Of a stretch of DNA of 35,361 nucleotides, positions 7,334 through 30,268 are shown one piece after another. Positions within the stretch are counted from its first letter, which is position 1. Each line of letters opens with the position of its first letter. A program made the translations under genes and the position numbers. The stretch covers positions 1 to 35,361 of the forward strand of contig CAITHK010000301.1 in assembly GCA_903892175.1 (NCBI GenBank), in the 5' to 3' direction. Below the pieces are notes generated by a model that was not told the origin of the DNA, made no database searches, and saw nothing but the letters and a program-made list of their open reading frames with translations. This stretch comes from an uncultured Burkholderiales bacterium (lineage in GTDB: Bacteria > Pseudomonadota > Gammaproteobacteria > Burkholderiales > Burkholderiaceae_C).

Positions 7334-7452
7334 GATGGGGTGGAACAAGTGAAGATATTTGACTGTCACACCACGGCGCATGAGTTTCAAGCGCTTGTGA
7401 GATTCATGACTCAAATGTCATTCACAACGTCCATCTGAACGAAAAGCATGGA

Positions 7453-7493: not shown

Positions 7494-7537
7494 CTCACCA
7501 AGGAATAGGAATACGGTAGCTCGACCGCTGGCACCTG

Positions 7538-8512: not shown

Positions 8513-8547
8513 GGTATGACCTTGAAACATGAGGTGCGTGTGCAGGC

Positions 8548-9576: not shown

Positions 9577-9624
9577 AAGAGCTCTACTTTCAATTGCAAT
9601 CCAGGTATCAAGCGACGCACAGCC

Positions 9625-10170
9625 TCAATGGCCCTCGAGCGGGTCCATGCCATCGATCAGCACAAACGCAATGCGGCACATGGCATTCGATCGATTCACC
9701 CACGCATGGTTGGTCCCCTGCTGCACCATGATGTCCCCGGCCTTGAGGTGGACCTCCGAGTCGTCCAGCAGCATGTCGATTTCGCCCGACATCACAAACA
9801 CGTAGTCGATACTTTTGGTGCGGTGCATGAACGCATGGCGCGCGGCTTGCCCCGCTTGGGCATGGTGACTCGCACCCATCATCTTCAAGATGTCGGCCTG
9901 GTTGACCGATTCAGCTTCCTTGGTCACCGGTGGAAACTCCACCACACGCAACACCGACCCCATGGGAGGCGGCGGCACACCCATGGTGCGGTCGGCTCGG
10001 TCGGCTCTTAAATCCATTCGCGCAGGCGTTTCATCGGTCACCCACACCAGGGTGCTCACAAAGCCTGTGCCTTCGCGGATTTTTTGATTGGGTGCCGGCC
10101 CGTCCATTTCAATGATGGCTTTGCCAGAGTCGTCGTGGCCTGTGACGATGCGTCGGATGCTGTGCGGCAT
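9625..10170 (-). CDS. Cupin-domain protein
   Basis: A 181-residue protein with one C-terminal cupin barrel at roughly residues 85-160. The cupin block reads HAFMHRTKSIDYVFVMSGEI, then a Gly-rich turn and GDIMVQQGTNHAWVNRS, with His residues in metal-ligand positions. Proteins of this size beside catabolic genes are often dioxygenases, isomerases or substrate sensors; the reaction is not readable here. The ATG at 10170 has only a weak purine-rich ribosome site; the frame extends upstream to 10227 into the Bug gene end, which is unlikely to be used. It is the second gene of the four-gene minus-strand cluster. Confidence 0.8.
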   Translation of the reverse strand: MPHSIRRIVTGHDDSGKAIIEMDGPAPNQKIREGTGFVSTLVWVTDETPARMDLRADRADRTMGVPPPPMGSVLRVVEFPPVTKEAESVNQADILKMMGASHHAQAGQAARHAFMHRTKSIDYVFVMSGEIDMLLDDSEVHLKAGDIMVQQGTNHAWVNRSNAMCRIAFVLIDGMDPLEGH

Positions 10171-10198
10171 AAGTTTTTTTCTTTCTAGGGTCTTGGGC

Positions 10199-11179: not shown

Positions 11180-11202
11180 GCGGCCTTGAATTACGCATAG
11201 CA

Positions 11203-11212
11203 TAATTAATTA
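11203..11212. promoter_or_regulatory. Palindrome in the Bug3/IclR divergent promoter region
   Basis: The 113-bp region between the two start codons is unusually AT-rich here and contains the perfect palindrome TAATTAATTA, 24 bp upstream of the Bug ATG and 81 bp before the IclR start. This position and symmetry suit an operator for the divergent IclR-type regulator. No -35/-10 pair was clear. Confidence 0.35.
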
Positions 11213-11292
11213 CTTCAGATGAAATAAATCATAAGGGGACGGCGCATGCAAGTCACCCGGGTTTCCACTCAACACTGTCACCGAGGATCGCG

Positions 11293-12081
11293 ATGGGCCA
11301 AGAACAACAAGGCGTTGAAGCCGCCGAAACCGTGGGTGCCATCTTGCACGGCATGCTGCAAGTGCAGCGCCCGGCTCGGCTCAAAGAGCTGGAGGCCGCC
11401 ACGGGCATCCATTCCGCCAAGCTGCACCGGTACTTGGTCAGCATGGCCAAGTCCGGGCTGATTTCCAAACAGCAGTCTGGCAGCCGCTATGACTTGGGGT
11501 TGCTGGCCTACCGCTTGGGTCAAACAGCCACACATGGTCAAGAGCTGCTGAGTTTTCTGGAGCCCTATTTTGAAAACTTCGTCGCCACACTCACCAACCC
11601 CGACCTCGGACAAGCCGTTGGCATTGGGCAATGGGTGGGCGACGGCCCGACCATCGTGAAATGGTTTGAAAGCAACTCGCCCTTGTCCATCCGCATGAAA
11701 CCGGGTGTGCACTTGAGCATCACTGCCTCGGCCACCGCCATGCTGTTGGCCGCCTACCTGCCGCGCGACCTGACCGAGCCCCTGGTGCGCGCCGAATTGC
11801 TTGAAAGAAACTTGTGCAATGCCAAAGAGATGAAACGTGTTTATGCGACCTATGCCGACATTCGGCAACGGGGAATTGCCAGCTCTTTGGGCTCGCGCCG
11901 GGCCGGCCTCAATGCCTTGTCTGTGCCTTTGTTTGAGCAATCCGGCGCGCTCGTGGCCTCCATCACCACGCTGGGCATGTCACCAAGTTTTGATGCGCAC
12001 TTAGATGGCGCTGCCGCGCAGCTGCTGAAAAAACTAGGGCGTGAACTGTCCTCCAAAATGGGCCACGCCCCAGAGCCTTAG
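11293..12081 (+). CDS. IclR-family transcriptional regulator
   Basis: A 262-residue protein with the IclR layout: an N-terminal winged helix-turn-helix at about residues 10-75 (blocks PARLKELEAATGIHSAKLHRYL and SRYDLGLLAYRLG) and a C-terminal effector-binding domain with PGVHLSITASATAMLLAAYL, GIASSLGSRRAGLNALSVPLF and ALVASITTLG. IclR proteins bind small organic ligands and usually control a neighbouring catabolic operon. GAGGA lies before the ATG at 11293. It is divergent from the Bug-cupin-LLM-Bug cluster, which is its most likely target; autoregulation is also likely. It is the only DNA-binding regulator next to any of the catabolic modules in the window. Confidence 0.92.
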   Translation: MGQEQQGVEAAETVGAILHGMLQVQRPARLKELEAATGIHSAKLHRYLVSMAKSGLISKQQSGSRYDLGLLAYRLGQTATHGQELLSFLEPYFENFVATLTNPDLGQAVGIGQWVGDGPTIVKWFESNSPLSIRMKPGVHLSITASATAMLLAAYLPRDLTEPLVRAELLERNLCNAKEMKRVYATYADIRQRGIASSLGSRRAGLNALSVPLFEQSGALVASITTLGMSPSFDAHLDGAAAQLLKKLGRELSSKMGHAPEP

Positions 12082-17118: not shown

Positions 17119-18234
17119 TCAAACGTTGATGGCGGAGCCCAAGCCCAGGGCTTGGTTGACGCGGGGCATCACCTCTTGCGCCATCAACTCCATCGAGCGG
17201 CGCCCCAAGGCGGGGTCCACCAAGTCCATGCCCGCATACACAATTTCGCCAAAGTCACCAGCGGTCTCGCGCAGCGCCAAGATTTGATCGACCACCTCGT
17301 TGACCGTGCCAGTGATCACCAAGTCGCCCATCAAGCGGTCCAAGGTCAACAAGCTGTCGTCCTCGTCGGGTGAGCGCTTGAAAATGACGTGACGGTTCGA
17401 GATTTTCATCTTCGTCAACATCTGCTGGTAGTAGTAGCGGTAAGGGCTGTTGGCGTCTTCGTGGCCATAGCGCTTGGCGGTGCTGGCGTCATCGCTGACG
17501 AAAATCGTGCGCGCCACGCGCCAATCGGCGGCTTTGGCCTGCTGCCCCACCGAGGTTTTGCCTTCGGCGTAGTTGGCCCAGTGGCTGGGCAACCAATGCG
17601 AGAGCAAGAAGTTGGCCGACATGGGGTGAAAGTCGCGCTGGCCCATGGCGATCACGCCCTTGGAGAAAGGCGCCACCACCGTGCCCACCACTTCGGGGTA
17701 GGGCTTTTGGAAAGGCTTCATCAACTCGCCGCGACCAATTGCGGGCACTGCCGTTTGACGGGTCGTCACCTTGAAACGGTTGTTCTCAAAGTCGATGTCG
17801 TAAGGCGGGTCGCGTTGCCAAATGGCCAAGATCACGTCAATGGCTTCAGCAAACAATTTGTTGCGGTCTTGGTCCAACATGCCCAAGGACTCGGCGTCAG
17901 ACGCCAACGCACCCGGGCTGATGCCAAAGATGAAACGGCCCTTGGCCAGGTGGTCAAACATGGCCGCTTGCGAGGCGATCAAGGTGGGGTGGGCATGCGA
18001 CAAGTTGCTGGTGCCCGAACCAAGTTTGATGTTTTGGGTTTCAAAAATCAACGTGGCCAAAAACATCAGGCTATTGGTCACGTTCTCGGCCTTGTCGGTC
18101 AAGTGCTCGCCCACAAACGCGTCGTAAAAGCCCAAGCGGTCGGCATAGATGATGGTTTGCCGATCTTCGTGCAGCGTTTCTGTGGTGTCCCGGTGCAAAG
18201 GATGCAAGGGCATGGTGAAGTAGCCTAAACGCAT
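17119..18234 (-). CDS. Luciferase-like (LLM class) flavin-dependent monooxygenase
   Basis: A 371-residue LLM protein, longer than the one at 8548-9576 and closer in pattern to limonene monooxygenase/alkanal monooxygenase-like members. Blocks: MRLGYFTMPLHPLHRD, YADRLGFYDAFVGEHLTDK, IKLGSGTSNLSHAHPTLIASQAA, LAKGRFIFGISPGALASDAE and MGDLVITGTVNEVVDQIL. It requires reduced flavin from a reductase not seen here. Start at 18234: the protein begins as expected and AGAGAG lies upstream; the frame extends to 18339 without similarity. It follows a Bug receptor by 40 bp, and this pair is divergent from the nine-gene catabolic run, so it may supply that pathway's first oxidation. Substrate unknown. Confidence 0.88.
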   Translation of the reverse strand: MRLGYFTMPLHPLHRDTTETLHEDRQTIIYADRLGFYDAFVGEHLTDKAENVTNSLMFLATLIFETQNIKLGSGTSNLSHAHPTLIASQAAMFDHLAKGRFIFGISPGALASDAESLGMLDQDRNKLFAEAIDVILAIWQRDPPYDIDFENNRFKVTTRQTAVPAIGRGELMKPFQKPYPEVVGTVVAPFSKGVIAMGQRDFHPMSANFLLSHWLPSHWANYAEGKTSVGQQAKAADWRVARTIFVSDDASTAKRYGHEDANSPYRYYYQQMLTKMKISNRHVIFKRSPDEDDSLLTLDRLMGDLVITGTVNEVVDQILALRETAGDFGEIVYAGMDLVDPALGRRSMELMAQEVMPRVNQALGLGSAINV

Positions 18235-18274
18235 GGTGTTTCTCTCTGTGTGTTCAATTGAAAATTTCTGCCGC

Positions 18275-19255
18275 TCATTCGGGCTGCACGCCCGCGTCTT
18301 TGATGACTTGGGCCCAGCGAGAGATCTCGCTGCCGACAAACTTGGTGTACTCAGCGCGTGACAACTTAGACGGCTCTAGGCCCAGTTGGTTCAAGCGCGC
18401 CAAAAAGCCTTCGTCTTTCAAGGCGGCGCTCAACCAGCCTTCCATTTTTTTCATCAGCTCAGGCGGTGTGCCTGCGGGTGCGGCCAGCCCCAAGAAGAAA
18501 CCCAGCTCATAGCCCGGGTAGGTCTCGGCAATCGCAGGCACATTCGGCCAGGCTTTGAAGCGTGTGGGCGCGGTCACGCCCAGTGCCAAGACTTTGCCGT
18601 TGTCGATTTGCGCCATTGCAGGCAAGTACTCGATGAACATCACTTGCAGCTGTTTGCCATAAAAGTCTTGCAGCGCAGAGCCAATGGCCTTGTAAGGCAC
18701 GCCCGTCATGGGTGCGCCGGTTTTGACCCGAAACATCTCTGCCGTCATTTGTGAGGCCGAGTTGTAGTGGCCAAAAAACATCTTGTCTGGGTTGGCTTTG
18801 GCGTAACTCACCAAATCGGCCACCGAGTTGATGCCCGAGCCTTTGAGCACCAACGCCACCGACGCAGCGGTGCCAAACATGCCCACATGGTCCAGGTCTT
18901 TGAGGGGGTCGTAAGGCACTTTTTTGTACAAGCTCAGGTTGGCCGCCAAGGTGGTGTTGGTGGTCAGCAACATCGTGTACCCATCGGCAGGTGCGTTCTT
19001 CACCGCCTCGGTGCCCAAGATGCCGTTGGCCCCGGCTCGGTTGTCGATCACCACCGATTGCTTGGTCTGCGCTTCCAAATATTGAGCAAAGGCCCGCGCC
19101 GTGATGTCACCCGATCCGCCAGGCCCAAAGGGCACCACCAAGCGAATGGGTTTGTTGGGATAGTTCTGGGCCTGTGCATTGAAGCCGGTCAGCACCAGCA
19201 AGGCGCAGGCGACGCAAAAAAGCCATTGCACGAATGGAATACGCAGGTGTTTCAT
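18275..19255 (-). CDS. Bug-family TTT periplasmic solute-binding receptor (copy 4)
   Basis: A 326-residue receptor. Signal peptide MKHLRIPFVQWLFCVACALL ends at the AQA-QNYP cleavage site. Blocks: IRLVVPFGPGGSGDITARAF, VVIDNRAGANGILGTEAV, DGYTMLLTTNT, GVPYKAIGSALQDFYGKQ and WPNVPAIAETYPG. Start at 19255 has AAGAG upstream; the frame continues to 19468 through the divergent promoter without support. It precedes the LLM monooxygenase by 40 bp in a likely two-gene unit and faces away from the Bug gene at 19467, so two receptors start back to back around one 211-bp promoter region. Confidence 0.93.
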   Translation of the reverse strand: MKHLRIPFVQWLFCVACALLVLTGFNAQAQNYPNKPIRLVVPFGPGGSGDITARAFAQYLEAQTKQSVVIDNRAGANGILGTEAVKNAPADGYTMLLTTNTTLAANLSLYKKVPYDPLKDLDHVGMFGTAASVALVLKGSGINSVADLVSYAKANPDKMFFGHYNSASQMTAEMFRVKTGAPMTGVPYKAIGSALQDFYGKQLQVMFIEYLPAMAQIDNGKVLALGVTAPTRFKAWPNVPAIAETYPGYELGFFLGLAAPAGTPPELMKKMEGWLSAALKDEGFLARLNQLGLEPSKLSRAEYTKFVGSEISRWAQVIKDAGVQPE

Positions 19256-19397
19256 GGTGTCTCTTGGTTGGGGCTCGGTGAGAGATTTGCCAGTCTTCAG
19301 TGTGCGGCGATTTTGACGGTGCCACAGCAACCGCGACACGCAACCAGGGGGCAGATGTGTAGCCTTTGCGACTCGAAATCTGCGGGTTTGACGCACA

Positions 19398-19426
19398 TTG
19401 CACGTAAAAACGCCACAGCGCATACT
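19398..19426 (+). promoter_or_regulatory. Weak sigma-70-like promoter candidate for the nine-gene run
   Basis: TTGCAC (19398-19403) and CATACT (19421-19426) are separated by 17 bp, 41 bp before the first start codon. Matches to consensus are 3/6 and 4/6, so this is tentative. It lies in the 211-bp region shared with the divergent Bug/LLM pair; I saw no clear operator there. Confidence 0.25.
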
Positions 19427-19466
19427 GCGCCGCCTTTGCCAACCCCTCACGCAGGAGCCCTTAAAC

Positions 19467-20441
19467 ATGCGCCCATGGCCCGTCTATGCTTTTCAAGCCC
19501 TCCTCGCGGCGTGTGCCTTCGCTTGGGGAAGCGGCGCACATGCACAGGCCTATCCCAACCGCCCCATCAAGATGGTGGTGCCGTATGCGGCAGGTGGCTT
19601 TTCTGACCAAGCCTCGCGCATCTTGGCCGAAGGCATGTCGCGCGCGCTCGGGCAGCCCATCGTCATCGACAACCGCGCGGGCGGGGGCGGGCGCATTGGC
19701 AGCGACATGGTCAGCCGCGCCAACCCCGACGGCTACCAGTTGCTGATGACCACCAACGGCACCCACACCTACATGGCAGTGACCGAAAAAAATCTGTCGT
19801 ATGACCCGGTGGCCGACTTCACCCCTGTCTCTTTGGTCGGCAGCTATGGCTTGCTGATGGTCACCCACCCCTCGGTGCCCGCACGCAATGTGCAAGAGTT
19901 CATCGCCTACGCACGTGCCAACCCGGGCAAAGTGAACTACGCCTCCTCAGGCATGGGCAGTGGCTTGCACTTTGCTGGTGAGTTGTTCAACGGCATGGCC
20001 AAAACCAGCCTGGTCCACGTGCCCTACAAGGGTTCCGGCCCCGGCATGCAAGACGTGCTGGCGGGCGTATGCCAGGTCATTTTTGACGGCGCAGCCAAGC
20101 CCCAAATTGACGCCGGCAAGGTGCGGTTCTTGGGCACCACCAGCGCCATTCGTGACCCCCGTTTTCCCGACGCCCCTACGCTGAGCGAAGCCGGTCTGCC
20201 CGGTTATGACCTGACCTACTGGGTCGGCTTGTTTGGCCCCAAAGGCATGGCACCCGACATCCAAGCCCGCTTGAACGCCGCCGTACGCACGGTGCTGGCC
20301 GAGCCCGAGACACAACGCAAACTCGCCGCCATGGGCATGACCTTGGTGGGCAGCAGCCCTGAGCAACTGGTGCGCGAAATTCGCACCGAGACCGACAAGC
20401 TGCGCCAGATTGCGGCGGCCATTCCGGGTGGCATTCAGTAA
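19467..20441 (+). CDS. Bug-family TTT periplasmic solute-binding receptor (copy 5)
   Basis: A 324-residue receptor, first gene of the plus-strand catabolic run. Signal peptide MRPWPVYAFQALLAACAFAWG is cleaved at AHA-QAYP. Blocks: IKMVVPYAAGGFSDQASRIL, IVIDNRAGGGGRIGSDMV, DGYQLLMTTNGT, HVPYKGSGPGMQDVLAGV and FPDAPTLSEAGLPGYDL. The ATG at 19467 has a clear AGGAG site upstream. The next gene, a PuuE-like hydrolase, follows after 33 bp. The same pairing of Bug and PuuE-like hydrolase occurs at 3306-5507, which suggests the two proteins see related molecules. Confidence 0.93.
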   Translation: MRPWPVYAFQALLAACAFAWGSGAHAQAYPNRPIKMVVPYAAGGFSDQASRILAEGMSRALGQPIVIDNRAGGGGRIGSDMVSRANPDGYQLLMTTNGTHTYMAVTEKNLSYDPVADFTPVSLVGSYGLLMVTHPSVPARNVQEFIAYARANPGKVNYASSGMGSGLHFAGELFNGMAKTSLVHVPYKGSGPGMQDVLAGVCQVIFDGAAKPQIDAGKVRFLGTTSAIRDPRFPDAPTLSEAGLPGYDLTYWVGLFGPKGMAPDIQARLNAAVRTVLAEPETQRKLAAMGMTLVGSSPEQLVREIRTETDKLRQIAAAIPGGIQ

Positions 20442-20474
20442 ATAATCCCTCCTTCACATTTGAAAGCCTGAACC

Positions 20475-21386
20475 ATGTCCGACGAAGAAGCCAACGCTTG
20501 GCGCCCGCACGAGCGGCTTGATTTTTCAGCCATCGTGGACCGCCCGCCACTGCAACTGCCCGGTGGTGCACGTGTGGTGGTGTGGCCGGTGGTCAACATC
20601 GAAGAGTGGGACATCTCACGTCCCATGCCCCGCATGGCCTCGCCCCCGCCCGGCGGTGTGGCCCCGGTGCCCGATGTGCCCAATTGGACTTGGCATGAGT
20701 ACGGCATGCGGGTGGGGTTTTGGCGTCTGCTTGACGCCTTCAAGCGCTACAACATCCAGCCCACCATGTCGATCAACGCCAAGGTCTGCGAAACCCGCCC
20801 ACGCGTGCCGCAAGCCGCGCTCGACGCCGGTTGGGAGTTCATGGCCCATTGCTACGAACAAATTCCCATCCAAAAAATCACCGACCAGCGCGCCATGATG
20901 GAGCAGACGCTCGACGTCTTGACCCGCTTCACCGGTCAGCGCCCCAACGGTTGGTTGGGCCCTGGGCGCAGCCAAACCTTTGTCACCCCTGACCTGATCA
21001 AAGAACTCGGCATGCAATGGTTTGGCGACTGGGTGCTCGACGACCAGCCGCAATTTGTCAACACCCGCCACGGCCGTTTGGTGTCGGTGCCCTACACCAT
21101 CGAGCTCAACGACATCGGCATCATGCTCACCGCCCACCAAGCGTCCGACGCCATGCTCAACCGCACCCGCGACGCCTTTGACCGTCTGTACATGGACTCG
21201 GCCCATGGCGCGCGCATTTTGGCGTTTGGCGTGCACCCGTACATCTCAGGTGCGTCACACCGCATCCGCTACTTTGAAGAAATGCTGGAGTACCTCAGCG
21301 GGCGCGATGACGTGGTGTTTTGGAACGGCCAACAAATCTGCGATTGGTTTGAGCAACAAGCCGTGACCAGCACGCCCCGCGTTTGA
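20475..21386 (+). CDS. Polysaccharide deacetylase-family hydrolase, PuuE (allantoinase)-like
   Basis: A 303-residue cytosolic NodB-fold protein, paralogue of the one at 3306-4220 (shared blocks W-EYG-RVG-WR, GWL-P, TPDL, DDQP, SVPY-E-NDI, HPYI-G). The sequence WPVVNIEEWD takes the place of the NodB catalytic Asp-Asp motif, as seen in PuuE-type allantoinases. The first half also contains DVPNWTWHEYGMRVGFWRLL and the middle GWEFMAHCYEQIP, where the first copy has a GHGHSN stretch, so the putative ligand His residues differ between paralogues. Expected reaction is hydrolysis of a cyclic amide or ureide; substrate unknown. The stop (TGA 21384-21386) overlaps the amidase ATG. Confidence 0.83.
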   Translation: MSDEEANAWRPHERLDFSAIVDRPPLQLPGGARVVVWPVVNIEEWDISRPMPRMASPPPGGVAPVPDVPNWTWHEYGMRVGFWRLLDAFKRYNIQPTMSINAKVCETRPRVPQAALDAGWEFMAHCYEQIPIQKITDQRAMMEQTLDVLTRFTGQRPNGWLGPGRSQTFVTPDLIKELGMQWFGDWVLDDQPQFVNTRHGRLVSVPYTIELNDIGIMLTAHQASDAMLNRTRDAFDRLYMDSAHGARILAFGVHPYISGASHRIRYFEEMLEYLSGRDDVVFWNGQQICDWFEQQAVTSTPRV

Positions 21387-22837
21387 TGCCCGCGCTGGAT
21401 GTGCCACTGCATGCCTTGTCAATCGCGCAAGCGGGTGAGCTGCTGCGCACCCGCGCGCTGACGCCGCTGCAACTGGTGCAGGCGTGTTTGGCGCGCACCG
21501 AAGCGCAGGAGCCACAACTCCACGCCTTCATCACCCGTTCCACAGACGCAGCCTTGGCTCAGGCCGAGCAGGCCACGCGGGAGATCGCCGCCGGCCACTG
21601 GCGTGGGCCCATGCATGGCATTCCCATCGCCCACAAAGATGTGTTGCTCACTCGTGGCGTGCGCACCACCGCGCACTCGCGGGCCTTGGAACACTGGGTG
21701 CCCGACACCGACGCCGTGGTGGTGCAGCGTTTGGCCCAAGCAGGTGCCATCAGCCTGGGCAAAACCGCCTGCCATGAATTTGCGTTTGGCTCGCCCGCCT
21801 CTGACGATGTGTTCCCCCCCGCACACAACCCTTGGAACCCGCTGCACATGCCGGGCAGCTCCAGCAGCGGCTCGGGCACCGCGGTGGCCGCCGGGTTTTG
21901 CCTGGCTGCCACGGGCACGGACACCGGCGGCTCGGTGCGTCACCCTGCTGCCGCTTGCGCAGTGGTGGGCTTCAAGCCCACCCGGGGCGTGTTGCCCATG
22001 GACGGCGTGATTCCATTGGCCCCCAGCATGGACCATGTGGGCTTGCTCACCCGAAGCGTGGGCGATGCGGTATGGATGTTTGAGGCCATGCGTGGTAACA
22101 GGATGCACACGCACCAGGACCTCGCTGCGCGCTCGCTTGGCGCGCCTTCGCCGCACACCCACGCCGTCTCTGGCTCACCCACCCCAGCGCGCACCGCCTT
22201 GCCCGGCCTGCGCATTGGGGTGATGCGCCGCCAGTTGCAAACGCAAGCCCATGACCCCGAAATTTGGGAATGTTTTGAAGAGGTGCTGGCACGCTGCCGC
22301 GCCAGCGGCGCACACGTCATCGACATCGACCTTGACGGCGGCGACCAAGCGGTAAGCCTGGCCAACACCTTGATTGGCTTTCAGGGCTACCAACAGTTGC
22401 AGCACTGGGTGCGCGACCAACCGCAGCTGCTGGGCCAAGGCTTGCGCCGTCGCTTGGTGAGCGCGGCCGAGGTAACCCCGCAAGACCATTGGCAAGCCTG
22501 CGTCGCGCGCTGGCAGCTGGAACAGGCCCTCGAAGAGGTGCTGACCCAACAGCTGGACGTGATGCTCTCGCCCGGGCGCGAAATGCCGCCTGAGACGCTG
22601 GACGCCTTGATGCACAACCCCACCGGCCAACGCAGCAGCTGCAACCGGCTCTACAGCCTCACCGGCCACCCCGCGCTCACCTTGCCCATGGGACTGCACA
22701 GCTCCGGCTTGCCCATGGCCTTGCAGCTCGCGAGCGCACACCACAGTGACGACCGTCTCTTAGGTTTGGCGCTGCGGCTGCAAAGCAGCCTGCCGTGGGA
22801 CCCACTGCACCCGGCCAACCCCCTTTTCAAGCCCTGA
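21386..22837 (+). CDS. Amidase signature-family amidohydrolase
   Basis: A 483-residue amidase with the Ser-cisSer-Lys triad: Lys84 (IAHKDVLLTRG), the Ser-rich loop MPGSSSSGSGTAVAAG with the cis-Ser near 159, and nucleophile Ser183 (TGTDTGGSVRHPAA). These enzymes hydrolyse linear amides or ureas (relatives include GatA, AtzF and aryl-acylamidases) to acid plus ammonia or amine. A GatA role is unlikely because gatB and gatC are absent. ATG at 21386 overlaps the previous stop (TGATG), and its own stop overlaps the next Bug start in the same way, so translation is coupled. It probably acts on the ring-opened product of the preceding PuuE-like hydrolase (inference). Confidence 0.9.
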   Translation: MPALDVPLHALSIAQAGELLRTRALTPLQLVQACLARTEAQEPQLHAFITRSTDAALAQAEQATREIAAGHWRGPMHGIPIAHKDVLLTRGVRTTAHSRALEHWVPDTDAVVVQRLAQAGAISLGKTACHEFAFGSPASDDVFPPAHNPWNPLHMPGSSSSGSGTAVAAGFCLAATGTDTGGSVRHPAAACAVVGFKPTRGVLPMDGVIPLAPSMDHVGLLTRSVGDAVWMFEAMRGNRMHTHQDLAARSLGAPSPHTHAVSGSPTPARTALPGLRIGVMRRQLQTQAHDPEIWECFEEVLARCRASGAHVIDIDLDGGDQAVSLANTLIGFQGYQQLQHWVRDQPQLLGQGLRRRLVSAAEVTPQDHWQACVARWQLEQALEEVLTQQLDVMLSPGREMPPETLDALMHNPTGQRSSCNRLYSLTGHPALTLPMGLHSSGLPMALQLASAHHSDDRLLGLALRLQSSLPWDPLHPANPLFKP

Positions 22838-23841
22838 TGCCACACACCGTCAACACCCACCGTCGCCACTGGCTGCAGGCCAGCCTTGCAGTGGGCGTGG
22901 GTGCGCTCACACACCCTGCCTACGGGCAAGCACAAACACTGCATTGGCCCAGCAAGCCGATTCGCTTTGTGGTGCCCTTTGTGCCTGGCGGCACGTCTGA
23001 CATCGTGGCGCGCACGGTGGCCCAAGAGCTGTCGCGCCAGCTGCCCTTTCCCGTCGTGCTCGACAACAAGGCTGGCGGCGGCGGTGTGCCCGCCATGCAA
23101 GAGGTGGCGCGCGCGGCGGGCGATGGCCACACCGTCATCTTGGGCCATGTGGGCTCGCTGGCGGTCAACCCCTACATCTTTGCCAACACCGGCTACGACG
23201 TGAACCACGACTTCGCCCCCGTGACCTTGTTGGCCAAAGTGCCCAGCTTGTTTGTGGTGCACCCCGACGTGCCGGCCAAAAACCTGCGCGAGTTGGTGGA
23301 CTACGCCAAACGCCGCCCCGGGCAACTCAATTACGCGTCGGCGGGCAACGCCAGCGCGGGTCACTTGGCCATGGAGTACCTCAAGCTTGCCACCGGCATG
23401 TTCATGACCCATATTCCCTACCGGGGCACGGGGCCTGCCTTGACCGATTTGCTGGCTGGGCGCACGCAGGTGTTTTCGGCTGGCACCCCAGCCTTGCTGC
23501 CCCACATCCGCAGCGGCCGCTTGCGCGCCATCGCCACGGGCACGCCACAGCGGCTGGCTTCGCTGCCCGACTTGCCCACGGTGGCCGAGTCGGGCTACAA
23601 GGGTTTTGAGTCGGTGCAGTGGTACGGCCTGATGGCGCCGGCCAGCACGCCCAGCGACATCGTCAAACGCTTGCAAGAAGAGTGCAACAAAGCCTTGCAC
23701 AGCGCCACCATTGCCGAACGCTTTGCCAGCGAAGACGCGCTGGTGGGCGGCGGCCCCCCGGCCGAATTTGCCGCCCTGATTGCCCAACAACAACGCCTTT
23801 GGAAAGACGTGGTGGCGCGTGCGCGCATCCGCGCCGACTGA
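22837..23841 (+). CDS. Bug-family TTT periplasmic solute-binding receptor (copy 6)
   Basis: A 334-residue receptor whose ATG overlaps the amidase stop (TGATG at 22835-22839). Export signal: THRRHWLQASLAVGVGALTH with Arg-Arg and Trp-Leu-Gln looks Tat-like, cleavage near AYGQA. Blocks: IRFVVPFVPGGTSDIVARTV, VVLDNKAGGGGVPAMQEV, GHTVILGHVG, HIPYRGTGPALTDLLAGR and LASLPDLPTVAESGYKG. It is followed after 23 bp by another Bug gene, a tandem pair in which the two proteins are clearly different rather than a recent duplication. Confidence 0.92.
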   Translation: MPHTVNTHRRHWLQASLAVGVGALTHPAYGQAQTLHWPSKPIRFVVPFVPGGTSDIVARTVAQELSRQLPFPVVLDNKAGGGGVPAMQEVARAAGDGHTVILGHVGSLAVNPYIFANTGYDVNHDFAPVTLLAKVPSLFVVHPDVPAKNLRELVDYAKRRPGQLNYASAGNASAGHLAMEYLKLATGMFMTHIPYRGTGPALTDLLAGRTQVFSAGTPALLPHIRSGRLRAIATGTPQRLASLPDLPTVAESGYKGFESVQWYGLMAPASTPSDIVKRLQEECNKALHSATIAERFASEDALVGGGPPAEFAALIAQQQRLWKDVVARARIRAD

Positions 23842-23864
23842 AGGCCCACCGGAGACTTCCCCCC

Positions 23865-24956
23865 ATGACCGCACACACCGCCCCCGAAGCACAACGCTCT
23901 GGCTTTGGCCTAAGCGCTTGGCACAGAGCGCACCAGACCGCACGCAGAATGCGGCAGTTTTTGGGGCTGTCTTGGAGGCTGTCTTTGGGTCTGTGTTTGG
24001 GTCTATGTCTGGGCCTGCTGGCTGCACACACCGCCCAGGCCCAAACCAACACCGACACCTTCCCCACCAAACCCATCAAGGTGATGGTGGGTTACGGGCC
24101 CGGCGGCACGGGTGATTTGACGGTGCGTTTGGTTGCGCAAAAAATGGGCGACAAACTGGGCCAGCCCCTAGTGATTGAAAACCGCCCCAGCGCCGGCGGC
24201 ATCGTGGCCTCGCAAACTGTGCAACAGGCAGCGCCCGATGGCTACACCCTGAACTTCATCGCAGCGGGCAACTTTGCCATGACGCCCTCGCTGTTCAAGT
24301 CGCTGCCGTTTGACCCAGTGAAAGACTTCGAAATGGTCTCACTCATTGGCACTTTTGGCTTTGCACTCGCGGTCGACGGCAACTCCAAGTTCAAAGACAC
24401 GCGTGACTTCATCGAGCAGGCCCGCGCCAACCCCGGCAAGCTGTTCATTGGCACCATCTCGGTGGGTAGCGCGCAGTTTTTGGCGGCCGAGGTGTTCAAG
24501 TCGATGGCCAAGATCGATGTGACCATCGTCACCTACAAAACCTCGGGCGACGTGATGCGTGCCCTGCGCGGGGGCGATGTGCAAGCCATTTTTGAAACCC
24601 TGGCCCCGGTGATTCCGCAGGCCAAGGCCGGCACCGTCAAGGTCTTGGGCGTGACCGAAGAGCAGCGCTTTCCGGGTCTGCCGCAAGTGCCCACGATTGC
24701 AGAGAGCGGTGTGCCCAACTACGCCGTGGCCGGTTGGAACGGCTTGGCCGTGCCCGCCAAAACACCGCGTGAGGTGATTCAAAAACTCAACGCCGAAGTC
24801 AACGCGGCGGTGGCGCAACCCGACATCAAACAAAAATTCCTCGACCTGGGCGTCACCGCCAAAGGCAACACCCCCGAACAAATGCAGGCCCTGTTGGTGC
24901 GCGACATCCAGTGGTGGCGTGACGTCATTGGCAAAGCCAAGATCGACAAGCAATGA
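23865..24956 (+). CDS. Bug-family TTT periplasmic solute-binding receptor (copy 7), repeat-bearing signal peptide
   Basis: A 363-residue receptor with a long N-terminus. The ATG at 23865 has GGAG upstream; an internal ATG at 23949 would remove 28 residues and still leave a complete signal peptide. The hydrophobic core is a tandem LSLG/LCLG repeat from 12-bp DNA units, ending at AQA-QTNTD. Mature blocks: IKVMVGYGPGGTGDLTVRLV, LVIENRPSAGGIVASQTV, DGYTLNFIAAG, VTYKTSGDVMRALRGGD and FPGLPQVPTIAESGVP. The usual HVPYKG is altered to TIVTYKTSG, so the ligand may differ. Its stop overlaps the dehydrogenase start (ATGA at 24953). Confidence 0.92.
   Translation: MTAHTAPEAQRSGFGLSAWHRAHQTARRMRQFLGLSWRLSLGLCLGLCLGLLAAHTAQAQTNTDTFPTKPIKVMVGYGPGGTGDLTVRLVAQKMGDKLGQPLVIENRPSAGGIVASQTVQQAAPDGYTLNFIAAGNFAMTPSLFKSLPFDPVKDFEMVSLIGTFGFALAVDGNSKFKDTRDFIEQARANPGKLFIGTISVGSAQFLAAEVFKSMAKIDVTIVTYKTSGDVMRALRGGDVQAIFETLAPVIPQAKAGTVKVLGVTEEQRFPGLPQVPTIAESGVPNYAVAGWNGLAVPAKTPREVIQKLNAEVNAAVAQPDIKQKFLDLGVTAKGNTPEQMQALLVRDIQWWRDVIGKAKIDKQ
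23967..24014 (+). repeat. Four imperfect 12-bp tandem repeats inside a signal peptide
   Basis: Units of the form CTGTCTTTGGGT start at 23967, 23979, 23991 and 24003 and encode LSWR, LSLG, LCLG and LCLG. The 12-bp period keeps the reading frame, so copy-number change would only lengthen or shorten the hydrophobic core. Confidence 0.8.
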
Positions 24957-25888
24957 AAAAAATCTACATCCTCGACGCCTTCCACGAAGCCGGCATCGCA
25001 CTGGCCAAAGCCCATGCCGAGGTGGTGTGTTGGCCAGACCCAGCCATTGCCGACTGGCCCGAGCACGCCGATGGCGTGATGGTGCGCATGACCCCGATCA
25101 CAGCCGAGCAAATTGCCCGCGCCCAGCATGTGCAGGTGATTTGCAAGCAAGGCGTGGGCACCGACACCCTCGATTTAGAAGCCGCCAAGCAGCATGGCAT
25201 TGCGGTGTCGCGCACACCGGGCGTCAACAGCGAAGCGGTGGCGGAGTTGGCGTTTGCCTTGTCGCTGTCGGTGACGCGCCGCGTGTCACGCTTTGACCGT
25301 TTGTTGCGAGCTGGCGTGCCCATCGTGCGGCCTGAGCATTTAGGCATCGAGATGCAGGGCAAGTCAGTGGGCATTGTGGGCATGGGCAACATCGGCTCCA
25401 TCGTGGCCAAAAAATGGCGCGGCGCCTTTGACGCGCACATCTGGGCCTATGACCCCTATGTGCCCAGCGAGCGCTGGGCCGACCTGCCGCACACCCGCGT
25501 GCAACACCTGCACGACATGCTGCCCCATGTGGACTTGCTGACGCTGCACCTGCCCTTGACCGACGAGAGCCGCCACATGATCAGCGAAGCCGAGCTGGCG
25601 TTGATGAAACCCGACGCGGTGCTCATCAACGTGTCGCGCGGAGGCATTGTGGACGAGGTGGCCTTGGCCGCTGCCTTGCAACGCGGCCACCTGTTTGGTG
25701 CCGGTCTGGATGTGTTTGAGGTAGAGCCTCCGCCGCCCGACCACCCGCTGCTGGCCTTTGACAACCTGATTGCCACGCCCCATGCTGCGGGCGGCACCCA
25801 CGACACACAACGCCGCAGTGCCACCCAAGTGGCGCAGCAAGTGATTGACGTGTTGAATGGTGGGCCGGTGGCGCACCGCGTCGTCTGA
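24953..25888 (+). CDS. D-isomer-specific 2-hydroxyacid dehydrogenase
   Basis: A 311-residue NAD(P)-dependent oxidoreductase of the phosphoglycerate/formate dehydrogenase fold. The nucleotide-binding motif GMGNIG is at 143-148 (block VGIVGMGNIGSIVAKKW). The catalytic triad is visible: Arg229 (INVSRGGIVDE), Glu258 (VFEVEPPP) and His277 (TPHAAG). The reaction is reversible conversion of a 2-hydroxyacid and a 2-ketoacid. The serine-pathway ACT domain is missing and the protein is short, so SerA is unlikely. ATG overlaps the preceding Bug stop, and the amidohydrolase follows after 19 bp. It probably handles a hydroxyacid released late in the pathway. Confidence 0.9.
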   Translation: MKKIYILDAFHEAGIALAKAHAEVVCWPDPAIADWPEHADGVMVRMTPITAEQIARAQHVQVICKQGVGTDTLDLEAAKQHGIAVSRTPGVNSEAVAELAFALSLSVTRRVSRFDRLLRAGVPIVRPEHLGIEMQGKSVGIVGMGNIGSIVAKKWRGAFDAHIWAYDPYVPSERWADLPHTRVQHLHDMLPHVDLLTLHLPLTDESRHMISEAELALMKPDAVLINVSRGGIVDEVALAAALQRGHLFGAGLDVFEVEPPPPDHPLLAFDNLIATPHAAGGTHDTQRRSATQVAQQVIDVLNGGPVAHRVV

Positions 25889-25907
25889 AGTTTTTGAACA
25901 ACACCCC

Positions 25908-26816
25908 ATGAAAACCTCACCCCTGACCGTGCTTGGCGTTGCCCACGACGCGCTGAACTTTGCCATGCCCGCCGAGGCCTGCGACTGCCACACCCATGTG
26001 TTTGGCCCCAGCGCCAACTACCCCCTGTCGCCAGAGCGCAACTACATGCCGGGCGACGCCTTGGTCCCCGACCTGCTGGCCTTGCATGACGGCTTGCACA
26101 TCGCCCGGGTGGTGATTGTTCACCCCAGCCCCTACGGCAGCGACAACGCCTGCACGCTGGACGCTTTGCGGGTGTTGGGCCCGCGTGGACGCGGCGTGGC
26201 GGTGATCGATGCCCACACCACCGACGCAAAACTGCAAGCCATGCACGAGGTGGGTGTGCGCGGCATTCGCCTGAACTTAGAGACCAGTGGCATCCACGAC
26301 CCCGACTTCGCCGCCCAGCAACTGCGCTGGGCCGCAGCACGCGTGGCACCACTGGGCTGGCATTTGCAAATGTTCACCAATTTGGCTGTGATGGCGTCCT
26401 TGCGCGAGGTGATCGAGACCTTGGACACGCCGGTGGTGTTCGATCACTTTTGTTTGGCCCGGGCTGAGTTGGGGACGGCACAGCCGCACTTTGACAGCTT
26501 GCTGGCGCTGCTGGCGAGTGGCCGTGTCTGGCTCAAGCTCTCAGCCCCACACCGTGTGTCGCAAGACCCCGACGGCGCGGCCATGACCGAGATGGCGCGC
26601 ACGTTGATTGCCCACCAGCCCGATCGCCTGCTGTGGGGCAGCGACTGGCCCCACCCAGGGGGGCGTCCGGGCCAGCCGCGTCACCGCGACCAAGTGGAGG
26701 CGTTCAATGCCATCAACGATGGCCATGCACTCAACCGTTTGGCGGCTTGGGTGGACGACGCCACCACGCTGCGCCAAATTCTCGCCACCAACCCTGCGCG
26801 CTTGTACGACTTCTGA
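25908..26816 (+). CDS. Amidohydrolase-family protein, 2-pyrone-4,6-dicarboxylate lactonase-like
   Basis: A 302-residue TIM-barrel hydrolase. The N-terminal DCHTHVFGP (H28, H30) followed by a YPLSPERNYMPGDAL block resembles LigI-type PDC lactonases, which open 2-pyrone-4,6-dicarboxylate in the protocatechuate 4,5-cleavage pathway. The strand-8 Asp lies in LLWGSDWPHPG. Other blocks: VVIVHPSPYGSDN, VRGIRLNLE, PVVFDHFCLA and ILATNPARLYDF. True LigI substrate is not assured; a lactone or enol-lactone of similar shape is a fair guess. The frame starts earlier (25857) but ATG 25908 gives the usual N-terminus; ribosome site weak. It follows the dehydrogenase by 19 bp. Confidence 0.85.
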   Translation: MKTSPLTVLGVAHDALNFAMPAEACDCHTHVFGPSANYPLSPERNYMPGDALVPDLLALHDGLHIARVVIVHPSPYGSDNACTLDALRVLGPRGRGVAVIDAHTTDAKLQAMHEVGVRGIRLNLETSGIHDPDFAAQQLRWAAARVAPLGWHLQMFTNLAVMASLREVIETLDTPVVFDHFCLARAELGTAQPHFDSLLALLASGRVWLKLSAPHRVSQDPDGAAMTEMARTLIAHQPDRLLWGSDWPHPGGRPGQPRHRDQVEAFNAINDGHALNRLAAWVDDATTLRQILATNPARLYDF

Positions 26817-26847
26817 GTCGCCCATCGCCCGCCACTCCGTGCCGCCT

Positions 26848-27879
26848 ATGTCATTGCCCCACCCACCTTCTGAGCTGCAAAACACCTGGCCTCGCACCGA
26901 AGCGGCGGACTCTCGGCGGCGCTTCACCCGCTGGCTGCTCGCCTCGTCGCTGAGCGCCAGCGCATTGGGCCACACGCCTTTGGCGCAGGCGCAAGACCAC
27001 AAGCCACTGCGCATCGTGGTGCCGTTTGCGCCCGGGGGCAGCAACGACATCGTGGGGCGCAGCATGGCGCAACAGCTCACCGCGCGCCTCAAACGCAGCG
27101 TGATCGTGGAAAACCGCCCCGGTGCCGGTGGTGCCATGGGCACCGAGATGGTGGCGCGCGCCGAGCCCGACGGCAACACGCTGGTGCTGATCTCGTCGAC
27201 CTACACCATGAACGCGTCGATCATGAAGCTCAACTACGACCCGGTGAAGTCTTTCGTCCCGGTGGCCATGTTGGGCATGGGCCCGAGCGTGATTGCGGTG
27301 GCGGCAGACCTGCCGGTCAACACCATCAAAGAGTTGGTGGAGTACTCCAAAAAGAACGCAGGCAAGGTGTTTTTTGGCTCGGCGGGCGTGGCCAGTTTTC
27401 AGCACTTCGCCATCGAGTTGTTCATGCAACGCAGCGGGGCTGTGCTCAGCGTGGTGCACTACAAAGGCGGCGGCCCGGCCTTGGTGGATTTGGCGGCGGG
27501 ACACGTGCAGGTGTCTTTGGGCAGCCTGATTCAAATGCAAACCTTTTTGCGCGCAGGCAAGATCAAGTTGCTGGCTGTGGCAGGCCCCAAACGGGTAGAC
27601 CTGATTCCCAACGTGCCCACGCTGCGCGAGTCGGGCATCGACATGGAAGCCAGCAACTGGTGGGCGCTGCTGGCCCCAGCGGGCACGCCCATGCCCTTGG
27701 TGGACGCGCTGCACCGCGAGGTGAATGCGGTGTTGACCACGCCCGAGATGCACCAGCGCTTTGCCTCGGAAGGGGCCGAAGCCCTGCCGCTCAAGCGCAG
27801 CGAGCTGGAGAAATTGATCGCCGACGACACCGCCAAATGGGCCTTGCTTGCCAAACAAACGGGCATCAAAGCCGAATAA
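26848..27879 (+). CDS. Bug-family TTT periplasmic solute-binding receptor (copy 8)
   Basis: A 343-residue receptor. The N-terminus is long and polar, then SRRRFTRWLLASSLSASALG gives a Tat-like signal with cleavage at AQA-QDH. Blocks: LRIVVPFAPGGSNDIVGRSM, VIVENRPGAGGAMGTEMV, DGNTLVLIS (Gly-Asn instead of Gly-Tyr), VVHYKGGGPALVDLAAGH and LIPNVPTLRESGIDME. No good ribosome site precedes ATG 26848, and the frame is open far upstream across the amidohydrolase gene, so the exact start is uncertain. It lies 31 bp after the amidohydrolase and 24 bp before the dioxygenase, in the same run. Confidence 0.9.
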   Translation: MSLPHPPSELQNTWPRTEAADSRRRFTRWLLASSLSASALGHTPLAQAQDHKPLRIVVPFAPGGSNDIVGRSMAQQLTARLKRSVIVENRPGAGGAMGTEMVARAEPDGNTLVLISSTYTMNASIMKLNYDPVKSFVPVAMLGMGPSVIAVAADLPVNTIKELVEYSKKNAGKVFFGSAGVASFQHFAIELFMQRSGAVLSVVHYKGGGPALVDLAAGHVQVSLGSLIQMQTFLRAGKIKLLAVAGPKRVDLIPNVPTLRESGIDMEASNWWALLAPAGTPMPLVDALHREVNAVLTTPEMHQRFASEGAEALPLKRSELEKLIADDTAKWALLAKQTGIKAE

Positions 27880-27903
27880 ACGCAGACCTTCAGGAGACTT
27901 TGC

Positions 27904-28761
27904 ATGACCCTCCATGTACAACCCATTCGCGCTGGTTTTGGCGCCGAAATTTCCGGCCTGGACTTGACTCAGCCGCAAGACGCCAACACCCGCGCACAGC
28001 TCAACGCGCTGTTTGCCACCTACGCCGTGCTGGTGTTTCGCCAGCAGCCGCTGACGCCGCCGCAGTTCATGCAAGCGGCCGAGATATTTGGCCCCTTGAC
28101 GCCGCAGCAAATCAAAAAGTTTGTGCTGCCCGACTACCCGCTGGTGGGCTACAACTCCACCCACGACTTGCCACGCAAAAACGGCAAGCTGCAGGTACGG
28201 GGTGAGAACTACCACACCGACCACTCCAACGACCTAGCTCCCCCCAAAGCCACCACCTTGGTGGCGGTGGAGATTCCGTCCCACGGCGGCGACACCCAGT
28301 TTGTCGATGCACGCCAGGCGTTTGACGATTTGCCCGAGGCCATGAAGCAGCGCATCGTGGGCCTGCGTTCGCTGCATGTGCACCAAAGCAGCCGCAGCCC
28401 GCGCAGCTTTGCCAAACTCAGCGAGGAAGAGATGGCCCGCATTCCGCGCACGCTACAACCCTTGGTGATTCGCCACCCCGACAGCGGTCGGGCGGCGCTC
28501 TACCTCAACACCGGTCGCATGGAAGGCATTGAGGGCCTGGACGACGAGGCGGGCTACGCCTTGATTGAGCAGCTCTACACCCACGCCACCCAAGCCCGCT
28601 ACGAGTACCGCCACCGCTGGCAAGTGGGTGACTTGGTGATTTGGGACAACCGCTCGGTGCTGCACCAGGCCAATGCCGACTACGACCCCGAGGAATACCG
28701 CTACCTCTTGCGCATCATGCTGCAAGGCGCGCCGTTGCAGGCCTACGGCAGCAGCCCTTGA
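27904..28761 (+). CDS. TauD/TfdA-family Fe(II)/2-oxoglutarate-dependent dioxygenase
   Basis: A 285-residue cupin-fold hydroxylase. The metal triad is H104-x-D106 (block ENYHTDHSND) with distal His254 (SVLHQANADY), and the 2-oxoglutarate-binding Arg is at about 270 (YRYLLRIML). The N-terminus GFGAEISGLDLT matches the family. Such enzymes hydroxylate sulfonates, phenoxy acids or amines to release a leaving group; the substrate is not readable. The start has a clear AGGAG upstream and lies 24 bp after the Bug gene. It is the last gene of the nine-gene run, followed by a perfect inverted repeat and the brnTA pair. Confidence 0.92.
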   Translation: MTLHVQPIRAGFGAEISGLDLTQPQDANTRAQLNALFATYAVLVFRQQPLTPPQFMQAAEIFGPLTPQQIKKFVLPDYPLVGYNSTHDLPRKNGKLQVRGENYHTDHSNDLAPPKATTLVAVEIPSHGGDTQFVDARQAFDDLPEAMKQRIVGLRSLHVHQSSRSPRSFAKLSEEEMARIPRTLQPLVIRHPDSGRAALYLNTGRMEGIEGLDDEAGYALIEQLYTHATQARYEYRHRWQVGDLVIWDNRSVLHQANADYDPEEYRYLLRIMLQGAPLQAYGSSP

Positions 28762-28922: not shown

Positions 28923-29201
28923 ATGCACATCGAATTTGACCCCGTCAAAAACGAACAAAACATCCGCCTTCGTGGATTGAGTTTCGAGCGTGCAGCAGCG
29001 TTTGATTTCGACACCGCCCTCATTGCGCAAGACGTTCGCAAGAACTACCCCGAAGCGCGCTACGTGGCCGTTGGCTTTTTGGCTGCTCGCTTGCATGTGC
29101 TGTGCTTCACCCCGGCAGAGGGTGGTATTCGTGTCATCAGTTTTCGTAAAGCCAACCCCAGAGAGGTCAAAAGCTATGAGCAAACGCACCCCACTGATTG
29201 A
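28923..29201 (+). CDS. brnT: BrnT-family toxin (RNase)
   Basis: A 92-residue BrnT protein, toxin of a type II toxin-antitoxin pair. Family blocks: IEFDPVKNEQNIRLRGLSFERA, VRKNYPEARYVAVGFL, and the C-terminal IRVISFRKANPREVKSYE, with the conserved Arg/Lys cluster linked to RNase activity. Known BrnT is a RelE-like ribonuclease held in check by BrnA. An AAGGG ribosome site lies seven bases before the ATG at 28923. It overlaps the antitoxin gene by 26 bp in toxin-first order, as usual for this family. AT-rich DNA and inverted repeats lie upstream. Confidence 0.92.
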   Translation: MHIEFDPVKNEQNIRLRGLSFERAAAFDFDTALIAQDVRKNYPEARYVAVGFLAARLHVLCFTPAEGGIRVISFRKANPREVKSYEQTHPTD

Positions 29202-29457
29202 CGCGGACGGCGAAGTGCGCGAACTCAGCGCCGCCGACCTGCGTCGCTTCAAACCAGCGCAGGAAGCACTGCCTGCTGGCTTACAAAAAACGCTGGGCAT
29301 GAAGCCGCGTGGCCCCCAAAAAACTCCGACCAAGCAAATGACCACCATCCGCTTGTCACCCGAGGTGATGAGCGCCTTCAAGGCCACGGGGCCGGGTTGG
29401 CAAACCCGTGTGGATGCGGCGCTGAAAGACTGGCTGAGTACGCACGCCTTGGGATAA
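29176..29457 (+). CDS. brnA: BrnA-family antitoxin
   Basis: A 93-residue antitoxin, partner of the overlapping BrnT. It has a polar N-terminus (MSKRTPLIDADGEVRELSAADL) that would wrap the toxin, and a C-terminal ribbon-helix-helix DNA-binding region (MTTIRLSPEVMSAFKATGPGWQTRVDAALKDW) from about residue 55. BrnA dimers repress the operon in described systems. ATG at 29176 is preceded by GAGAGG. The gene runs against the class II aldolase gene (stop-to-stop gap 22 bp). Whether the pair stabilises this catabolic region is speculation. Confidence 0.92.
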   Translation: MSKRTPLIDADGEVRELSAADLRRFKPAQEALPAGLQKTLGMKPRGPQKTPTKQMTTIRLSPEVMSAFKATGPGWQTRVDAALKDWLSTHALG

Positions 29458-29479: not shown

Positions 29480-30268
29480 TCAAATGTCGTAAGGCGGGTA
29501 GCCCGAGTGTTTGCCCTCGGCTTGCAGCAGGCGAAGCATGGCCGGCCACTCCAGCACCCCATAGGGGCGGCGTGTGCCCGGTTGGTACAGATGGGCCGTG
29601 TGCGCCAACACCTCGGCCGAAGGCAGGGTCAGCTCGGTGCGTGCGGCCATGGCGTCCACCTGCGCACGGCACGACATTTCCAACTGGTACATGGTGTTGA
29701 ACGCTTGCTGAATGGTCGCGCCACAGGTGAGCAAGCCGTGGTTGCGCAAAATCATGGCGTCGTGAGGCCCCAGGTCTTGCACCAAGCTCACGCGCTCGGC
29801 CAGGTCAATCGCCGGACCTTGAAAATCGTGGTAACCGATGTGGCCCACAAAGCGGATGGAGGTTTGCGTCATCGGCAGCAAGCCGCATTGCATGCTGGCC
29901 ACGGCCATGCCCGCGCGGGTATGGGTGTGAATCACACAACGCACATCGGCACGTGCTTCGTGGATGCAGCCGTGGATCACATAACCAGACTTGTTGATGC
30001 CGTAGTCGGTGTTGGGCTGGCTGATGATCTGGCCTGAGGCATCGATTTTCACCAAGCTCGAGGCGGTGATTTCTTTGTAGAGCAAGCCATAAAGGTTGAT
30101 CAGCAAATGGTCGGTCCCAGGAATGCGCGCTGTGATGTGGTTGTAGATCAGGTCGGTCATGTCGAACTGGTCCATCAAGCGGTAACAGGCGGCCAGCTCG
30201 ACGCGGGTTTGCCATTCTTCGGGCGACACGCTGTGTTCAAGACAAGGAAAGTCAGTGCTGTAGTTCAT
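29480..30268 (-). CDS. Class II aldolase/adducin-family protein
   Basis: A 262-residue cytosolic protein. The zinc-binding His pair is in VIHTHTRAG (about residues 113-121), and a second His is in ILRNHGLLTCG. Other blocks are TDLIYNHITARIPGT and IDLAERVSLVQDLGPHDA. Relatives cleave phosphorylated sugars (fuculose, ribulose phosphates) or act on other hydroxyacids, but this subgroup, lacking phosphate-loop clues I can name, is not assigned. The start at 30268 has no good ribosome site; it lies 14 bp after waaF on the same strand, so coupling to the LPS gene is plausible. A distinct role from the catabolic region is likely. Confidence 0.85.
   Translation of the reverse strand: MNYSTDFPCLEHSVSPEEWQTRVELAACYRLMDQFDMTDLIYNHITARIPGTDHLLINLYGLLYKEITASSLVKIDASGQIISQPNTDYGINKSGYVIHGCIHEARADVRCVIHTHTRAGMAVASMQCGLLPMTQTSIRFVGHIGYHDFQGPAIDLAERVSLVQDLGPHDAMILRNHGLLTCGATIQQAFNTMYQLEMSCRAQVDAMAARTELTLPSAEVLAHTAHLYQPGTRRPYGVLEWPAMLRLLQAEGKHSGYPPYDI

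Follow-up and report, generated by a model that had tools for sequence, protein, structure and literature searches.

Gene content of the locus

The DNA analysed here, called the window throughout, is a stretch of 35,361 nucleotides from an uncultured Burkholderiales bacterium (NCBI GenBank assembly GCA_903892175.1, contig CAITHK010000301.1). It is contig C301 of a genome assembled into 312 contigs with a total of 3,394,576 bases, at a completeness of 96.6% and a contamination of 6.6%. Nine genes on the plus strand make up one run (19467-28761), from which a luciferase-like monooxygenase (LLM) and the receptor gene BugA diverge on the minus strand. A preliminary description had taken this arrangement for a single catabolic system. 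Based on the comparison with other genomes, we are highly confident that the run is built from two modules.

The divergent arm consists of the LLM, a monooxygenase probably of the type using reduced flavin mononucleotide (FMNH2; 17119-18234, minus strand; PF00296, 115 bits against a cut-off of 27.9), and BugA, a periplasmic receptor of the TctC family (18275-19255, minus strand; PF03401). On the plus strand, module I continues with the TctC-family receptor BugB (19467-20441; PF03401), a PuuE-like hydrolase of the polysaccharide deacetylase fold family (20475-21386; PF01522), which to judge from its sequence is likely a cyclic imide or amide hydrolase, and an amidase-signature amidase (21386-22837; PF01425, 312 bits), likely a half-amidase. 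The receptor BugC (22837-23841; PF03401) occupies the join. Module II then starts with the receptor BugD (23865-24956; PF03401) and includes a D-2-hydroxyacid dehydrogenase (HADH; 24953-25888; PF02826/PF00389), an Amidohydrolase-2 lactonase resembling 2-pyrone-4,6-dicarboxylate (PDC) hydrolase (25908-26816; PF04909), the receptor BugE (26848-27879; PF03401) and a TauD-type Fe/2-oxoglutarate dioxygenase (27904-28761; PF02668, 217 bits against 27), all on the plus strand. A convergent class II aldolase (29480-30268, minus strand; PF00596), omitted when the gene set was first delimited, also travels with module II. It meets the PRK07044 aldolase II subfamily model (NF005451; 310.6 against 207 bits), which carries no named function.

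All eleven genes of the run and its divergent arm are open frames that exceed the cut-offs of the Pfam families expected for them, the weakest call among the run genes being Polysacc_deac_1 (29.6 against 23.1 bits), and the family assignments of the preliminary description were right. This includes its four receptors in the run and a fifth beside the LLM, all of which hold a TctC domain (PF03401) above 27 bits. The intergenic distances were likewise correctly given as overlaps at 21384, 22835 and 24953 and gaps of 19-33 bp: BugB and the PuuE-like gene are separated by 33 bp, PuuE-like and amidase overlap by 1 bp, as do amidase and BugC, BugC is followed by BugD after 23 bp, BugD and HADH overlap by 4 bp, and the remaining gaps measure 19 bp (HADH to lactonase), 31 bp (lactonase to BugE; 22 bp if a GTG start is used) and 24 bp (BugE to TauD). 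The run is thus operon-like, while a promoter and terminator scan of the window stayed near the level of shuffled sequence (3 against 2.0 and 23 against 15.9) and is non-decisive.

The receptors belong to one family and their solved relatives include the proteins BugD and Bug27 as well as terephthalate-binding proteins; a membrane transport component was not found among the run genes. Since TctC (Bug) genes number 126 in the 3.39 Mb genome, with 8 of them inside the window, the receptors in the run are less informative than they look.

Recurrence of module I

Species genomes were scanned with an alignment of the PuuE-like protein, of which the best 80 of 567 confirmed loci were used, and the window genes were compared by tblastn with these 80 loci and 20 family loci. 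Counts for the PuuE-selected set refer to 91 loci, i.e. 11 family loci and the best 80. Module I (BugB, PuuE-like, amidase and the divergent BugA and LLM) is found again in Limnohabitans-type genomes, and Limnohabitans and other Comamonadaceae are also among the named relatives of the PuuE-like gene, so that the window presumably stems from a Limnohabitans-like bacterium of a freshwater type. Locus L031 of a sister assembly keeps the order of the window, with LLM (99%), BugA (96%), BugB (96%), PuuE-like (97%), amidase (85-87%) and BugC (95%). The same order is found for BugB (77-78%), PuuE-like (77-79%) and amidase (53-55%) in loci L032-L035, with BugA relatives (75-77%) in L032-L034. In L034, LLM (84%) and BugA (77%) diverge, an IclR regulator lies between the arms, and the amidase is followed by an alpha/beta hydrolase and a cupin; members of the same hydrolase and cupin sequence clusters are present in L032, L033 and L035. 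Module II genes did not exceed the thresholds in any of L032-L035, where the stretch for L035 spans only 7.5 kb.

In 17 of the 91 loci the PuuE-like gene has an amidase of a single sequence cluster no more than 8 kb away, and in 10 of these the two share a strand and are at most 200 bp apart; the two genes are adjacent in the window as well. The amidase is located downstream of the PuuE-like gene in L031-L035 and upstream of it in L011, L012, L013, L042 and L043, and these opposite orders in different loci argue for a functional link between the two enzymes.

Recurrence of module II

Other species of the genus also carry module II (BugD, HADH, lactonase, BugE, TauD and the class II aldolase), in whole or in part. 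Among 200 genomes of the family, TauD (E <= 1e-60) and HADH (E <= 1e-80) were both found in the same two, the genome of the window and G130, where HADH lies one gene from TauD. Three loci of G130 carry module II genes: L168 combines aldolase (83%), HADH (76%), BugE (68%) and TauD (75%) on the same strand, L173 holds aldolase (82%), BugD (81%) and HADH (76%) before the contig ends, and L174 has BugD (81%), HADH (74%), BugE (72%) and TauD (76%). A lactonase relative of this genome (62%) sits in a separate locus, L121.

Within the genus of the window, TauD is present in 9 of 51 genomes (own genome included), and 10 loci from 8 other genomes were compared, four of them on stretches under 15 kb. 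BugE (at least 66%) stands beside TauD in eight of the ten, aldolase (73-78%) and HADH (51-70%) are present in six each and the lactonase (at least 49%) in five; PuuE-like, LLM and the module I amidase were found in none of the ten. Locus L199 reproduces exactly the order of the window with BugD (72%), HADH, lactonase, BugE, TauD and the convergent aldolase, and the other genus loci hold partial versions. From the loci of G130 and the genus, L199 included, it follows that module II stands alone and that it includes the aldolase at 29480-30268.

In an order-wide sample, TauD (E <= 1e-70) occurs in 5 of 330 genomes, including that of the window, and in one of another family (L183) a TauD of 61% is accompanied by HADH (40%), a Bug, an HpcH aldolase and an SMP-30 lactonase. 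The aldolases of the TauD-HADH loci vary: besides class II enzymes, HpcH occurs in L183 and L196 and RraA in L196. An isopropylmalate-type dehydrogenase was seen in 8 of 18 lactonase stretches and a flavin mononucleotide (FMN)-type enzyme in L121; for neither these dehydrogenases nor the aldolases was a chance expectation computed. That the same functions are repeatedly supplied by changing families is the best support for lactone opening, oxidation and aldol cleavage. The core of TauD, HADH and aldolase thereby extends over three genera and two families, one of them with another aldolase family, and no scanned curated model names it.

Some further genes were seen at these loci. L168 (1752-19220) also holds a three-subunit molybdenum hydroxylase set, CoxG, an enoyl-coenzyme A (CoA)-hydratase-type protein, a PcaD-like hydrolase, a thiamine pyrophosphate (TPP) enzyme and a CoA-transferase III. 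The module II locus L196 (3973-4779) shares a PF04199 cyclase gene with the PuuE/LLM loci L015 (11702-12502; 83%) and L044 (9077-9862; 68%); L163 carries it at 3660-4445, and a 55% copy is present in the genome of the window.

Partners of the monooxygenase

In the PuuE-selected set, LLM lies within 8 kb of the PuuE-like gene in 9 of the 91 loci and within 200 bp in three (L015, L021, L110). Conversely, LLM (E <= 1e-90) was found at 18 places in 14 of 399 family genomes, and at three of these (the window, L015 and L021) a PuuE-like gene is near. The closest full-length outside orthologues (82-83%; G260, G130 and G291) are accompanied by a cupin relative and by relatives of BugA or BugB. In L143 and L145, a flavin reductase beside the LLM and an alpha/beta hydrolase could be confirmed, the reductase of L034 is 79% identical to that of L143, and a flavin reductase is also near the LLM relative on the Paracoccus plasmid L179. 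The window has no flavin reductase next to its LLM, and an alpha/beta hydrolase relative (61%) lies on contig C303 of the same genome together with Bugs and a cupin relative. The LLM is tied more to flavin reductase, Bug, alpha/beta hydrolase and cupin than to the PuuE-like gene. The earlier proposal of an operon-like catabolic run is upheld.

A plasmid search returned 66% as the best LLM match (Paracoccus), at most 40% for TauD and under 50% for PuuE-like. The 66% relative, on a plasmid of Paracoccus methylovorus, belongs to a cluster (L179, 10219-20480) that also encodes a flavin reductase, two alpha/beta hydrolases, an acetolactate-synthase-type enzyme, a short-chain dehydrogenase/reductase (SDR), an Asp/Glu racemase-type protein, an aldehyde dehydrogenase, an amidohydrolase and an aldolase/citrate lyase.

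The join between the modules

In the sister locus L031, the sequence continues past BugC into a 68-codon N-terminal piece of BugD (91%), after which the contig ends. Because a separate assembly runs through BugC into BugD, the join is no artefact of the assembly of the window. The six genes from LLM to BugC differ from those of L031 by a synonymous divergence (dS) of 0.36-0.56 at a ratio of nonsynonymous to synonymous divergence (dN/dS) of 0.017-0.135, from which we conclude that the joined arrangement persisted under selection; for module II genes compared with another genus, dN/dS is 0.13-0.24.

The amidase evolves faster than its neighbours (85-87% against 95-99% to the sister; dN/dS 0.378 against L034). 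Its exchange for a foreign copy, as the 53-55% identity to L034 might suggest, is disfavoured, as it is also the fastest-diverging gene in the comparison with the sister and, by pairwise identities only, is nearer to the amidases of L032 and L034 than to those of L011, L042 and L044.

At the thresholds used, L121 alone among the stretches fetched besides the window combines genes of both halves (BugC 78%, lactonase 62%). Between these two relatives it carries two Bugs, an FMN-dependent dehydrogenase, an FAH-type hydrolase, a TauD (31%) and a glutathione S-transferase (GST). With this sole exception modules I and II recur apart, so that the run is not one conserved unit: the expectation that the gene order would be conserved elsewhere holds for each half and fails for the nine genes as a whole. 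We therefore regard the run as probably a fusion of two catabolic modules, one for nitrogen-containing rings and one for hydroxy acids, and the join as an illustration of how existing units are put together into catabolic operons.

Several observations weigh against this reading. Only a single genome shows the fused run in full, beyond the first part of BugD, as the sister contig stops within BugD. The lactonase is missing from all three module II loci of G130 (L168, L173, L174) and has no match in five of the ten genus loci, and is therefore possibly accessory, and three order-wide TauD relatives (49-51%) have no HADH nearby. In module I, 15 of the 18 LLM places have no match to PuuE-like in the fetched stretches (some under 10 kb), which led us to reject a tight LLM-PuuE core partnership in favour of a minority link, and the best that the genome offers against the flavin reductase of L034 is a single match of 27%, i.e. 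no good reductase. Moreover, the polysaccharide deacetylase and amidohydrolase families are broad.

Whether the fused modules also cooperate is a separate question. The two halves may simply be unrelated pathways that have become neighbours in a genome rich in Bug clusters, whether or not they are transcribed together; we give this about an even chance. It would agree with the separate occurrence of the modules in the fetched loci and with the genomic background, namely the 126 TctC genes and a second Bug/LLM/cupin cluster in the window itself (3306-12081), and is harder to reconcile with the overlapping frames around the join and their persistence in a sister species. That both modules serve one substrate we consider rather unlikely.

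Comparison with known systems

The nearest named relatives of the enzymes point to well-studied pathways. The profile of the PuuE-like window family is nearest to PuuE structures (1z7a, 6e-42; 3cl6, 1e-39; 3qbu, 6e-22), the nearest solved relative of the lactonase is PDC hydrolase (2e-43), and TauD is closest to RdpA (2.7e-49), followed by TauD (6.5e-43) and TfdA (1.1e-41). The dioxygenase shares with these PF02668 and the residues H104, D106 and H254, which are invariant across 9 relatives and which we take to be the iron ligands (H-x-D...H). For the LLM, the best solved relative is 3,6-diketocamphane 1,6-monooxygenase (8.6e-21), a match too distant to assign a reaction.

On these relationships the run could belong to allantoin, PDC (protocatechuate 4,5-cleavage), sulfomuconolactone or taurine degradation, yet the curated cut-offs are missed throughout. 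The PuuE-like protein shares family and nearest solved structures with the PuuE allantoinase and scores 116.3 against 424.6 bits in its model (TIGR03212). The lactonase, of the same Amidohydrolase-2 family as LigI (the PDC hydrolase) and 4-sulfomuconolactone hydrolase, differs from them in its score (167.9 against 500 bits; NF042924) and in its neighbours HADH, TauD and aldolase. TauD stays below the taurine dioxygenase model (NF007104; 159.1 against 313 bits), HADH below phosphoglycerate dehydrogenase (284 against 454 bits) and the amidase below indoleacetamide hydrolase (270 against 532 bits). Among the matches listed (25 of 26 for the amidase), none of LLM, PuuE-like, amidase, HADH, lactonase and TauD reached an NCBIfam function model at cut-off. 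Presumably, the run genes also belong to none of the other steps of the four pathways. We rejected the allantoin, sulfomuconolactone/PDC and taurine pathways for the missed cut-offs, and it is very improbable that any of these known pathways is encoded here.

The nicotinate utilization of Aspergillus nidulans likewise pairs a hydrolase related to the PuuE branch with an amidase-type enzyme: as described in PMC9304392, the imidase HxnM converts 3-hydroxypiperidine-2,6-dione to alpha-hydroxyglutaramate, from which the amidase HxnN forms alpha-hydroxyglutarate. By description, HxnM is placed nearest HP0310 (3qbu). The window family, in contrast, has its nearer relatives among the PuuE structures, and the passages on the Aspergillus system mention no LLM, TauD or lactonase (PMC9304392). 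An Hxn-type pathway was rejected, as the imidase/amidase pair is the sole part shared with the system so described. Enzymes of PuuE structure are described as using a small cyclic substrate (PMC3084791), and Bug27 and Bug69 bind quinolinate (PMC11452294).

In the open-access full texts searched, no description of this gene combination was found. The earlier remark that no named pathway is known with this combination is supported, as is the absence of any listed function model that the genes would reach. What we describe is a set of known enzyme classes in two conserved modules, unmatched to a described pathway and joined here, and this combination is new.

Proposed chemistry

While the architecture is solid, the chemistry is what we infer. 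In module I, BugA and BugB would bind a carboxylated substrate, the ring of which would be oxygenated by the LLM, likely an FMNH2-using oxygenase by sequence, with FMNH2 from a reductase coded elsewhere. The PuuE-like enzyme would then open a cyclic imide or amide by hydrolysis, giving a half-amide, and the amidase would release ammonia and leave a carboxylate; by analogy the two could act as imidase and half-amidase, for and against which we see equal reason. In module II, TauD may hydroxylate a carboxylate or cleave its ether, the Amidohydrolase-2 enzyme would open a lactone, HADH would oxidise a 2-hydroxy acid to a 2-oxo acid and the class II aldolase would split it. We put forward the order lactonase, dehydrogenase, aldolase tentatively, at a little less than an even chance.

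The product of the Aspergillus enzymes suggests how the halves might be connected. In one integrated pathway, the LLM would oxygenate an N-heterocyclic carboxylate, opening by the PuuE-like enzyme and deamidation would follow, HADH would oxidise the resulting 2-hydroxydicarboxylate and the aldolase would split the product, and the fusion would have been selected because module II completes module I. The tight join with its overlaps of 1 bp (amidase/BugC) and 4 bp (BugD/HADH), kept in a sister diverged to the dS given above, speaks for this idea, as do the PF04199 cyclase common to L196 and to L015 and L044, and the 2-hydroxydicarboxylate formed by imidase and amidase in A. nidulans, a possible substrate of an HADH-type enzyme (PMC9304392). 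Against it, each module recurs alone, and HADH, TauD and aldolase come with Bug partners of their own, which makes integration doubtful.

Less likely still is its most explicit version, in which the fused run would be a single undescribed aerobic pathway for an N-heterocyclic carboxylate, from ring oxygenation by the LLM to aldol cleavage, and each half also an older, likewise undescribed pathway of its own. Flavin-dependent oxygenation, imide hydrolysis and deamidation would here yield a 2-hydroxydicarboxylate, and 2-oxoglutarate-dependent hydroxylation, lactone opening, oxidation and aldol cleavage would form the second half. Returning to the fusion of two modules as the reading we prefer, its value also lies in the uptake proteins, whose possible ligands are narrowed down by two small conserved modules of defined enzyme classes. 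Bug-rich bacteria carry many clusters of such type.

Neighbouring features in the window

Upstream of the run, the second Bug-rich cluster (3306-12081) includes three Bugs, a nitronate-monooxygenase-type protein, a second luciferase-like monooxygenase, a cupin and an IclR regulator. It also contains a PuuE-like relative without a Pfam match at 1e-5, which shares 42-43% identity with the additional PuuE-like copies of L016 and L018. A BrnT/BrnA toxin-antitoxin pair at 28923-29457 separates TauD from the class II aldolase; both of its members score above the cut-off (76 and 79 bits).

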